Position numbers and translations under genes: made by a program
Part shown: piece by piece, positions 6,337-35,936 of the stretch
How the letters are laid out: every line of letters begins with the position of its first letter
Position numbering within the stretch: position 1 is the stretch's first letter
Notes under the pieces: generated by a model
Seen by the model: only the letters and a program-made list of their open reading frames with translations
Told to the model about the DNA's origin: nothing
Databases searched by the model: none
Assembly (NCBI GenBank): GCA_021806645.1
Contig: JAJZQX010000003.1
Coordinates: 124,001-188,000, forward strand
Origin: Myxococcales bacterium
GTDB taxonomy: Bacteria > Myxococcota > Myxococcia > Myxococcales > Anaeromyxobacteraceae
DNA length: 64,000 nt
Direction: 5' to 3'

Positions 6337-7188
6337 CTAGCCCGGCTCGCCGATCGGCTCGCCGACCCGCACCTTCTCCCCCGGCGCCAGCCGCCCGGAG
6401 AGAGTCACCCGCCCCGGCTCGAAGACCAGGATGACGGTCGAGCCCATCTCGAAGGCGCCCAGCTCGGCCCCCTTCTCCACCGGCTGCGGCGGCGCGTACT
6501 CGCCGCGCTGCATCCCGTCGGCCCCGGGCTGATCGGTGACCGGCACCGTGCCGTCGTAGCTGGCGCGGACCCGCCCCACCACCGTGGCGCCCACCGCCAC
6601 GATGGCCACCAGGCCGAGCGGTGATTCGAGCAGCGTCACCAGCCGCTCGTTGACTGTGAAGAGCCCGGGGACGTTGGCGACCGAGGCGGCGTTGACCGGC
6701 CAGAGCTCGCCGGGGACGTAGCGCCAGCCGGCGACGGCTCCGCCGAGCGGGAAGTGGATCCGGTGGTAGTCCTGCGGCGAGAGGTAGATGGTGAGCCACC
6801 GCCCGCCCTCGAGGCGGCGTGCCAGGGCGGCGTCGCCCAGCAGCGCTTCGAGCGAGTAGTCGAGCCCCTTGGCCTGGATCATCCGTCCGCCGATGGCCAG
6901 CCCCACCTCGGAGACCCGGCCGTCCACCGGCGAGACCGGCACGCCGTCGCCCGGGGCGATGGGGCGCAGCCCCGGCAGGAGCGGCCGGGCGAAGAACTGC
7001 CCGAAGGTCCGGTAGGTCCCGAGCGGCGGGCTGGCCGCGAGGTCGATGTCGTACCAGGAGGCGAAGGCGCGCATGGCGGCGCGCAGGACCGGGCCCGGCC
7101 CTTGCCAGTCCGTCAGCCGGCCGACCAGCCTGGAGAGGGCGTTCTTGGGAACGGCACGCATCGCCGAGATGAAGAGACGGTCGCTCAT
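6337..7188 (-). CDS. psd: Phosphatidylserine decarboxylase proenzyme
   Basis: Makes phosphatidylethanolamine from phosphatidylserine at the inner membrane. 283 residues from the ATG at 7188; a longer in-frame extension is rejected because it overlaps the divergent amidotransferase gene in antisense. Motifs: SPVDGRV (Asp89), YHRIHFP (His142), and the self-cleavage site EMGST with the pyruvoyl-forming Ser250; the usual LGST appears as MGST. First gene of the minus-strand operon that continues into hisS. No phosphatidylserine synthase is adjacent. Confidence 0.93.
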
Positions 7189-7239
7189 GGGGGAGGCGGA
7201 GTCTAGCAGAGCCTCCGCCGGCGCCGGTAGGATGCGCCG

Positions 7240-7980
7240 ATGTGCCGCCTCTTCGGCCAGCATGCCCCCCCGGAGCTCGATCGCTGCGTGCCGCTCTGCA
7301 GCGCGCACAACGCCCTGCGCTTCCAGAGCCACAGGCACCCGCACGGCTGGGGGATCGCCTGGTACCAGGCCGGGCGGGTCCGGGTGGAGCGCGGCCTCCT
7401 CCCGGCCCACGCCGACGAGGCCTTCGTCGAGGCGGCCCGGGCCGCCCGCTCGCGGGTGGTGATCGCCCACGTGCGCGACGCCAGCGTCGGGCCGGTGACC
7501 GAGGCCAACACCCACCCCTTCATTCACGACCAGTGGATCTTCGCCCACAACGGGACGGTGGCCCGCTTCAGGGACGTGGCGCGCGTCCGCGCCCGGCTCG
7601 AGGCCGAGATCGACCCGGTCTTCCGCCGGGCGCTGCGCGGCGAGACCGACAGCGAGCGCTGCTTCCTGATCTTCCTGACCCGGCTGGCGGCGCGCCGGGG
7701 CGCGGCGGGGGTGACGCTGGCCGAGGTGAAGACGGCGCTGCGCGCCACCACCGAGACCATCCGCCGCGTCGCCGACCTGAGCTCGGCCAGGCCCTCCTCG
7801 CTCAACTTCCTGGTCAGCGACGGGCGCGTGCTGGCCGCCAGCCGCCATGGGCGCGACCTGCACGTGTCCGAGGCTGCCGGGGACGAGCATGTCTTCGCCG
7901 TCGCCAGCGAGCCCATCGGCGCCGCCGACTGGAAGGTGGTGCCGGAGGGGGCGGTGGTCGGGTACGAGGGGGATGGGTGA
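7240..7980 (+). CDS. Class II glutamine amidotransferase (YafJ/EgtC-like)
   Basis: 246 residues. The N-terminal nucleophile is Cys2 (MCRLFG), exposed after Met removal, as in Ntn-type GATase II. Further family motifs are [29 protein letters not shown] and FAHNGTV. Preceded by AGGA seven bases before the ATG. It is a stand-alone glutaminase domain; these enzymes hydrolyse gamma-glutamyl amide bonds, but no ergothioneine or other partner gene is near, so the substrate is unknown. It is divergent from psd and convergent with the DUF4139 gene, and so is probably monocistronic. Confidence 0.85.
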
Positions 7981-33159: not shown

Positions 33160-35379
33160 TCAGATCCCGCCGTCGCCGCGCAGCCGGATGATCTCGGCCA
33201 GCACGCCGCCGGCGGTGAGCGGGCCGCCCACCCCCGCCCCCTGCACCAGCAGCGGCCGCTCGGCGTGGCGGGAGGTGGTGAAGGCCACGAAGGCCTCGAC
33301 GCCGACCAGCCGCGCCGCCGGGTGGCTGGCGTCGACCGCGGCCGGCCCGACCCGGATCGAGGCCCGCCCGCCCGCGGCCGGCTCGATGGTGACCAGGTAT
33401 CGCAGGACCTTCCCGGTGGCCCGCAGCCGCTCCACCTCGGCGGCCAGCACCGCGTCGTGGTGGCGCAAGGAGGCGATCAGCTCCACCGGCGCGAGCAGCG
33501 CCAGCGGGACGAACGGCTCCACCGCCACGCCGGCCAGCTCGACGTCGAAGCCGGCCTCCCGCGCCAGGATGAGCGCCTTCCTGGCCGAGTCGAGCCCGGA
33601 GAGATCGTCGCGGGCGTCGGCCTCGGTGTAGCCGAGCCCCACCGCCCAGCGCGTCGCCATGGAGAGCGGCACGCCCTTCTGCACCTCGCTGGCGAGGTAG
33701 CCGAGCGTCCCGGACAGCGCCCCCTCGATCCGCAGGATCCGGTCTCCGGCCTGCACCAGCTTGCGGAGTGTGTCGAGCACCGGGAGGCTGGCGCCCACCG
33801 CGGTGTCGTAGGAGAAGTGGCGATGGAGTTGCCGGCGGGCCTCGCGCAGCTCCCGCGCCCGCCTCGCCGGAGCAGCCAGCGGCCGCTTGTTGGAGGAGAT
33901 GACGTCGATGCCGCGCCGGAAGGCCTGCTGGTAGACCTCCTCCATCCCCTCGGCGGCGGTCAGGTCGATCAGCACAGGATCGGGCAGCCGGGCCAGGCGG
34001 TCGAGCAGGGCCGGGGCGCGAGCGGCGTCGATGGGCCCGGTCTCCGGCGCCTCGGCCAGCCGATCCCGCCACGCCGCCAGCTCCACGCCGCGCTCGTCGA
34101 AGAGGGTGGCGCGCCGGTCGGCCACGCCGGCCAGGCGCAGCACCAGGTCGTGGTCGGCCTCCAGGGATCCGCGCAGCGCCGCCAGCTGGTCGAGCAGGGC
34201 ACCGCCCACCTTCCCCTTCCCCAGCACCAGCAGCGACAGCCCCTTGCCGGCGTAGGCCCGCTCCACGGCCTCACCGCCGGCCGCCAGCGCCGTCCGGCCC
34301 CGGAACTCGGCCACCAGGTCGGAGAGCCGGTCCACGTCGATGAGGAAGGCGTCGTGGCCGTGCGGCGAGTCCATCACCGCCAGCCGCGCCCCCGGCACCA
34401 GCCGCGCCACCTCGCGCTGCTCGGCGGGCCAGTAGAGGATGTCGGAGTCGATGGCCACCACCAGGGTCCGGGGGCGGAGGCCGCGCAGCACCTCGTCGAA
34501 GTCTCCGCGGCCGCGGCTGACGTCGTGGGTGTCCATGGCGCGGGTCAGCGCCACGTAGCTGGCCGGGTCGAACCGCTCGACCAGGGCCCTCCCCTGGTGG
34601 CGCAGGTAGCTCTCGATGGCGAACTGGTCGGCCGACTGGGCCCGGCGGCCGAAGCGCTCCTCGAAGGAGGGAAAGCTCCGGTAGGAGAGCATGGCCATCA
34701 TGCGGGCCGCGGCCAGCCCCGCCTCGGGCGGCTCGGCCTCGTCGTAGTCGCCGCCGCGCCAGCGCGGATCGGCGAAGACGGCCTGCCGCTGCGCCTCGCC
34801 CAGCCCGATGGCCCAGGCCGAGTGGCGCGCCGTGGAGGCGATGAAGACCTGCGCCTCCACCAGCTCTGGGTGGAGCAGCGACCACTCCAGGACCTGCATG
34901 CCGCCGAGCGAGCCGCCCATCACCAGCTTGATCCGCCGGACCCCCAGCGCCACCGCCAGCCGGTGCTGGACCCGCACCATGTCACGGACGGTGATGGCGG
35001 GGAACGCGCCGTGCCACGGGCGGCCCGTGGCCGGATCGACGTCGGCCGGGCCGGTGGTCCCGTAGCAGCTGCCGAGGATGTTGGCGCAGAGGATGAAGTC
35101 GCGGGCCGGGTCGAGCGCCCGGCCCGGCCCGAACATGCGCGTCCACCACCGGTCGGCGTCGGCCGAGCCGGTCAGGGCGTGGCAGATGATCACCGCGTTG
35201 GCGCCCTCGGCGTCCAGCTCGCCCCAGCTCCGGTAGGCCACCCGCACGCCGGGGAGGACGCCGCCCAGCTCCAGCGGGAACGGCCCCGGGAGCTGGTGGA
35301 AGCGCGTCTCCGGGGCGACGAAGGCGGCTCGTCCGGCGCCGGGGGCCGGCCGATCGGCGCTTGCGGATCTGTCCGTCAT
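33160..35379 (-). CDS. Fusion of homoserine O-acetyltransferase (MetX) and homoserine dehydrogenase
   Basis: 739 residues from the ATG at 35379. Residues 1-360 are a MetX alpha/beta hydrolase: nucleophile Ser157 in GGSLGG, Asp in VVAIDSD (311 or 313), and His342 in SPHGHD. After a short linker (about 360-378) a homoserine dehydrogenase begins with the NAD motif LGKGKVGG (387-393), then VISSNKRPLA, EGALSGTLGYL and GYTEADARDDLSGLDSARKALIL, which resembles the ThrA-type dehydrogenase. Thus one chain would make homoserine and then acetylate it on the way to methionine. No stop or shift is visible between the halves. Confidence 0.9.
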   Translation of the reverse strand: MTDRSASADRPAPGAGRAAFVAPETRFHQLPGPFPLELGGVLPGVRVAYRSWGELDAEGANAVIICHALTGSADADRWWTRMFGPGRALDPARDFILCANILGSCYGTTGPADVDPATGRPWHGAFPAITVRDMVRVQHRLAVALGVRRIKLVMGGSLGGMQVLEWSLLHPELVEAQVFIASTARHSAWAIGLGEAQRQAVFADPRWRGGDYDEAEPPEAGLAAARMMAMLSYRSFPSFEERFGRRAQSADQFAIESYLRHQGRALVERFDPASYVALTRAMDTHDVSRGRGDFDEVLRGLRPRTLVVAIDSDILYWPAEQREVARLVPGARLAVMDSPHGHDAFLIDVDRLSDLVAEFRGRTALAAGGEAVERAYAGKGLSLLVLGKGKVGGALLDQLAALRGSLEADHDLVLRLAGVADRRATLFDERGVELAAWRDRLAEAPETGPIDAARAPALLDRLARLPDPVLIDLTAAEGMEEVYQQAFRRGIDVISSNKRPLAAPARRARELREARRQLHRHFSYDTAVGASLPVLDTLRKLVQAGDRILRIEGALSGTLGYLASEVQKGVPLSMATRWAVGLGYTEADARDDLSGLDSARKALILAREAGFDVELAGVAVEPFVPLALLAPVELIASLRHHDAVLAAEVERLRATGKVLRYLVTIEPAAGGRASIRVGPAAVDASHPAARLVGVEAFVAFTTSRHAERPLLVQGAGVGGPLTAGGVLAEIIRLRGDGGI

Positions 35380-35420
35380 AGTGGAGGGACGGCGAAGATA
35401 ACGGCGCCTCGGCTGGGGTG

Positions 35421-35936
35421 TCAAGAACCGCTCGAACCGCCCCGGTCCGGCGCCCGGCGGACCAGGCGGGCCACCAGCAGGTCGGCCAGCGGCCCGAGCC
35501 GATCGGGGTGGAAGGTCGGCAACGGGCGCGGCGGCGGCTCGTCGGAGACCACCGCGAAGACCTTCCGATCGAGTTCGCAGAGGAAGTCGCGCGCCACGCG
35601 CCGCCGGTGCACCTCGATCCGCGGCAGCGGTTCCCCCCGCCACCCCTCGGCGAGGATCAGGTCACAGGGCGGGAGCAGGCGGGCCAGGGCCCGCGCCCCA
35701 CCGGCCGGCGGTCCGAAGAGGGCCAGCCCGCCAGGCCCCTCGATGGCCGCGGCGATGGCGCCGGCGCGCCGGAGCAGGTCGGTGTCCTTGCCCGGCACGT
35801 CGAACGAGTGGCGGTGGCGGGTGTGCTTGAGCACCGCCACGGAGAGGCCGCGCCGGCGCAACAGCGGGATGAGCCGAGTGAGCAACCGGGTCTTGCCGGC
35901 GCCGCTCGGCCCCGAGATGGCCACCAGCGGGGTCAC
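35421..35936 (-). CDS. mobB: Molybdopterin-guanine dinucleotide biosynthesis protein MobB
   Basis: GTP-binding adaptor thought to assist attachment of GMP to molybdopterin. 171 residues from a GTG overlapping the moeA stop (GTGA); an ATG at 35957 inside moeA would add seven residues. Walker A GPSGAGKTRLL, then VAVLKHTRHRHSFDVPGKDTDLLRRAGA and ILAEGWRGEPLPRIEVHR, all typical of MobB. MobA is not in the window. Co-transcribed with moeA. Confidence 0.9.
   Translation of the reverse strand: MTPLVAISGPSGAGKTRLLTRLIPLLRRRGLSVAVLKHTRHRHSFDVPGKDTDLLRRAGAIAAAIEGPGGLALFGPPAGGARALARLLPPCDLILAEGWRGEPLPRIEVHRRRVARDFLCELDRKVFAVVSDEPPPRPLPTFHPDRLGPLADLLVARLVRRAPDRGGSSGS

Follow-up and report, generated by a model that had tools for sequence, protein, structure and literature searches.

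A single-chain MetX–homoserine dehydrogenase fusion in Anaeromyxobacteraceae and its counterparts in other lineages

Fusions of the aspartate pathway and the present locus

Bifunctional aspartokinase–homoserine dehydrogenases, such as ThrA and MetL of E. coli, are well-known fusions of the aspartate pathway. Homoserine dehydrogenase (HSD) sits where the threonine and methionine branches part, and HSD of the ThrA type is normally fused to an aspartokinase that bears ACT domains. Substrate tunnelling was not favored for these aspartokinase-HSD fusions by Fondi et al. (PMC1885841), who also described an aspartokinase-LysA fusion in Xanthomonadaceae. Genes for HSD and for homoserine O-acetyltransferase (MetX), which opens the methionine-specific branch, have been reported as neighbors, e.g., hom-metXC in Hyphomonadaceae (PMC4239095).

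The stretch of DNA analyzed here (64,000 nucleotides from a Myxococcales bacterium of the Anaeromyxobacteraceae; hereafter the window) carries a gene (33160..35379, (-) strand, ATG to stop) whose single unbroken frame joins an N-terminal MetX to a C-terminal HSD. The product resembles ThrA and MetL in that its HSD half is of the same type and C-terminal, in being an aspartate-pathway fusion, and in the existence of separate HSD copies that could serve each branch; unlike them, it has MetX rather than aspartokinase as partner, and no ACT domain. Further, the two steps that it would join are consecutive (HSD then MetX), whereas the aspartokinase and HSD steps of ThrA and MetL are separated by aspartate semialdehyde dehydrogenase. 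With monofunctional MetX (e.g., 2b61, from H. influenzae) it shares the fold, the Ser-Asp-His triad and the HALTG motif, but it differs in bearing an HSD and in its nearest tree relatives, which are cyanobacterial and Chlorobi MetX. Neighboring hom and metX genes bring the same two functions together, but as two genes and two proteins, and aspartokinase-LysA, while also a lineage-restricted aspartate-pathway fusion, consists of other enzymes and belongs to the lysine branch. No account of a MetX-HSD fusion was found in the open-access literature searched, and the pair is not described by any of the NCBIfam models that match the protein.

Coding frame, domains and conservation within the family

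Translation of 33163-35379 on the (-) strand yields 739 stop-free amino acids, and the coordinates first proposed for this gene (33160-35379) are exact once the stop codon is counted. A consensus scan detected one promoter-like element, TTGACA-18-TATCTT (35395..35424, (-)), against a mean of 0.0 in shuffled sequence; it ends 15 nt before the ATG, and comparable elements lie upstream of most relatives' fusion genes. Because this element intervenes between the ATG and an in-frame upstream GTG at 35643, the latter is an unlikely start. The earlier note had held that a missed stop or an internal start between the domains would speak against a single chain; 19 relatives show no such stop, and their codon alignment contains no start codon at a conserved position in the linker.

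The MetX half (residues ~20-361; 34297..35322, (-)) contains Pfam Abhydrolase_1, an alpha/beta-hydrolase domain, at residues 61-346, above cut-off, and scores 402.1 bits with the NCBIfam MetX equivalog NF001209 (cut-off 331). As the stricter MetX model TIGR01392 gave 416 bits and did not reach its cut-off of 500, both the substrate and the acyl donor of this half are predictions. The triad (Ser157, Asp313 and His342) is invariant in 22 aligned fusions and aligns with that of 2b61; the PDB relatives of this half, 2b61 among them, are MetX enzymes, and the predicted fold agrees. In a MetX tree, it groups with the cyanobacterial and Chlorobi enzymes. The original naming of this half as MetX is correct.

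The HSD half (residues ~380-739; 33163..34242, (-)) matches Pfam NAD_binding_3 (387-524) and Homoserine_dh (533-731), both above cut-off, and aligns over residues 380-733 with the HSD region of PRK09436, a ThrA model, at 306 bits, which is below the whole-protein cut-off because the fusion has no aspartokinase part. Consistent with this, no Pfam AA_kinase or ACT domain was matched anywhere in the 739 residues, setting the protein apart from the ThrA/MetL class. Five residues invariant in the 22 aligned fusions (Lys498, Glu586, Asp592, Asp597 and Lys601) align with Lys117, Glu208, Asp214, Asp219 and Lys223 of yeast HSD, the PDB relative of this half; we take these yeast residues to be those of the active site. 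In an HSD tree, the half is placed among the aspartokinase-HSD enzymes. The profile alignment, domains, active-site residues and tree placement together agree with the description of this half as ThrA-like, and the further claim of an intact single-chain fusion holds: one stop-free frame, both domains matched, and catalytic residues present.

Between the halves lies a linker (residues ~362-379; 34243..34296, (-)) that varies in both length and sequence in the codon alignment of 19 relatives, and whose predicted local confidence (pLDDT) is below 50 at residues 364-374. Simple Nei-Gojobori estimates of dN/dS, made between the window gene and five of its relatives, were 0.16-0.47 for MetX, 0.28-0.62 for HSD and 0.4-1.1 for the 18-residue linker; by these estimates, both halves are under purifying selection, while the linker drifts. 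A structure model built on a shallow alignment, whose best PDB matches are MetX-family structures, has pLDDT mostly above 90 in the MetX half, low values in the linker, and an HSD half less certain, too much so for the arrangement of the domains to be read.

The fusion is present as a single open frame in 19 of the 24 Anaeromyxobacteraceae genomes (source genome counted), among them one-contig genomes, and is therefore not an artefact of assembly. Named carriers include Anaeromyxobacter sp. PSR-1 and A. oryzae. Two more genomes carry a broken copy, due to a frameshift in one (G012) and a contig break in the other (G016), and the remaining three, which have no match, are 66-80% complete.

Genome context and a predicted role in the methionine branch

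Apart from the fusion, nothing in the source genome matches MetX, and a MetA-family protein was likewise not found; an O-acetylhomoserine sulfhydrylase, MetY (L122), scores above the TIGR01326 cut-off. The presence of MetY fits the acetyl product predicted for the MetX half, and we infer that acetyl-CoA is its preferred acyl donor. Two other HSDs are encoded, one of them with an ACT domain (near G000:C6:1420-3036), and aspartokinase is absent from all three HSD frames. The other, a divergent HSD of ~352 aa without an ACT domain (G000:C3, L127:1231-2289, (-)), immediately follows the genes for pyruvate dehydrogenase E1 and E2.

The reading that best accounts for these data, to which we assign a probability of roughly 0.85, is that the protein is bifunctional and reserved for methionine synthesis. 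Its C-terminal HSD would reduce aspartate semialdehyde to homoserine, which the N-terminal MetX would convert to O-acetylhomoserine, usable by the MetY-type sulfhydrylase, with the fusion keeping the two activities close together and in a fixed ratio. In this scheme, an HSD of the kind that is fused to aspartokinase would have lost this partner and its ACT domains and gained MetX; as both are absent, the fusion is probably free of threonine feedback, and the separate ACT-type HSD probably serves threonine. The points in favor, all drawn from sequence, are the single frame with both domains, the invariant catalytic residues, the 19 intact family copies, the purifying selection on both halves, the sole MetX without a MetA-family match, the presence of MetY, an ACT domain that the fusion lacks but another HSD carries, and the position of HSDs of this clade beside metX in related genomes. 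The earlier suggestion that homoserine is directed to methionine, "away from threonine", would likewise fit this gene content, in which MetA is missing and an ACT-type HSD is available for threonine; both activities and the division of labor between the HSDs are to be read as predictions.

Counting against a methionine-branch role, the gene is not part of a methionine operon, and no methionine riboswitch of a known kind accompanies it. Its neighbors in the window encode MobB, MoeA, an M24 (methionine-aminopeptidase-like) peptidase and an M1 aminopeptidase, with no methionine-synthesis genes among them, and the flanking genes differ among the relatives looked at; no riboswitch or other Rfam RNA was matched in the window or at five related loci. 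The next gene downstream (window:32130-33107, (-)) encodes the M24 peptidase, which is SEC-C-tagged, and is followed by the M1 aminopeptidase gene.

Related fusions and alternative readings

A search for the order MetX-then-HSD, which the earlier note had proposed, recovered it also in three myxobacterial and nine Acidobacteriota genomes. The note's view of the pairing as unfamiliar is upheld in that the pairing is unusual, but it is not unique to the Anaeromyxobacteraceae lineage, since MetX-HSD fusions of two other kinds exist. The Acidobacteriota fusions (nine of 347 sampled genomes) have the same domain order in one frame of 740-880 aa, with a MetX of different lineage and an HSD outside the ThrA class, and fall on separate branches of both the MetX and HSD trees (quick trees, no bootstrap). 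These proteins (L176-L184; e.g., L177:4298-2022) also have a C-terminal extension beside their different class of HSD. No single-frame fusion was among the matches listed for a sample of 395 Bacteroidota genomes, the three best spanning candidates being adjacent genes with stops between them, and no match spanned both halves at E <= 1e-80 in a sample of 398 Pseudomonadota genomes.

The clade of the window's HSD half contains only Myxococcota in the sampled set (support 100/99), and it also occurs in f4, another family of the same order with mostly large genomes, and in f17. In these relatives, the HSD occurs in four arrangements: fused to an aspartokinase, in a gene adjoining metX (G110, G146, G068, G056 and G154); attached to a degenerate aspartokinase that lacks the KFGGSS and GRNGSDY motifs, again adjoining metX (G026 and G084); free, immediately after metX (G106 and G145); and as the C-terminal part of a MetX fusion ordered like the window protein (G073, G101 and G102, three genomes of another myxobacterial family). 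Since the gene order metX-then-HSD matches the domain order, fusion of neighboring genes is a natural route. The MetX of the G073/G101/G102 group belongs to a lineage far from that of the window fusion, while its HSD is related: monophyly of the fused MetX domains of the two myxobacterial groups was rejected (p = 0.0006), whereas that of their fused HSD domains was not (AU p = 0.288), implying either (i) two fusions, or (ii) one fusion whose MetX half was later replaced. Although the HSD result would allow a single ancestral fusion, the MetX data run against it, and the HSDs of the G073/G101/G102 group sit beside the pseudo-aspartokinase HSDs (modest support, 81/75), so that we regard the second course as doubtful.

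That fusions of MetX and HSD with different ancestries occur in several lineages suggests that coupling the two steps is useful, and the more demanding proposal of channelling, already raised when the fusion was first noticed, can draw both on this repeated origin and on the fact that consecutive reactions share one chain. Transfer of homoserine from HSD to MetX that bypasses the cytosolic pool, though plausible, nevertheless seems unlikely to us, given the variable linker, a structure model that leaves the packing of the domains unsettled, and relatives in which separate adjacent genes suffice. The linker would fit simple tethering with fixed stoichiometry equally well, and co-expression and proximity plausibly suffice. 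Similarly improbable is a broader scheme for the recurrent pair, whereby the methionine branch would capture nascent homoserine by direct transfer or active-site cross-talk, and control of HSD would come to lie with MetX instead of with aspartokinase and its ACT domains. That one half might have lost catalysis, or serve chiefly a structural or regulatory purpose, leaving a single enzyme, is brought to mind by the degenerate aspartokinases of the same HSD clade, which indicate that partner domains can decay yet remain fused; the invariance of the catalytic residues of both halves in 22 fusions, the purifying selection on both, and the status of the fusion as the genome's only MetX make this very improbable, and the bifunctional, methionine-dedicated enzyme remains our preferred reading. 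If so, such fusions would be natural systems in which to test channelling or proximity where a pathway divides, as well as ready-made systems for producing O-acetylhomoserine and methionine, and annotation by one half would conceal the other predicted activity.

Several further loci bear on the partners of these domains. Four encode aspartokinase-HSD proteins in which the aspartokinase is truncated or lacks catalytic motifs, mostly beside metX (L132:5816-8329, L133:5394-8879, L145:242-3016 and L144:4428-6410); these appear to be pseudo-aspartokinases still attached to an apparently intact HSD. In another (L158, genome G033, ~6428-7816), a MetX falls inside the fused clade of G073, G101 and G102 with no HSD within the surrounding 14 kb, the HSD half having probably been lost secondarily. 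Finally, in three loci from Bacteroidota and Acidobacteriota (L188, L190 and L191), metX immediately precedes or overlaps an aspartokinase gene without HSD.
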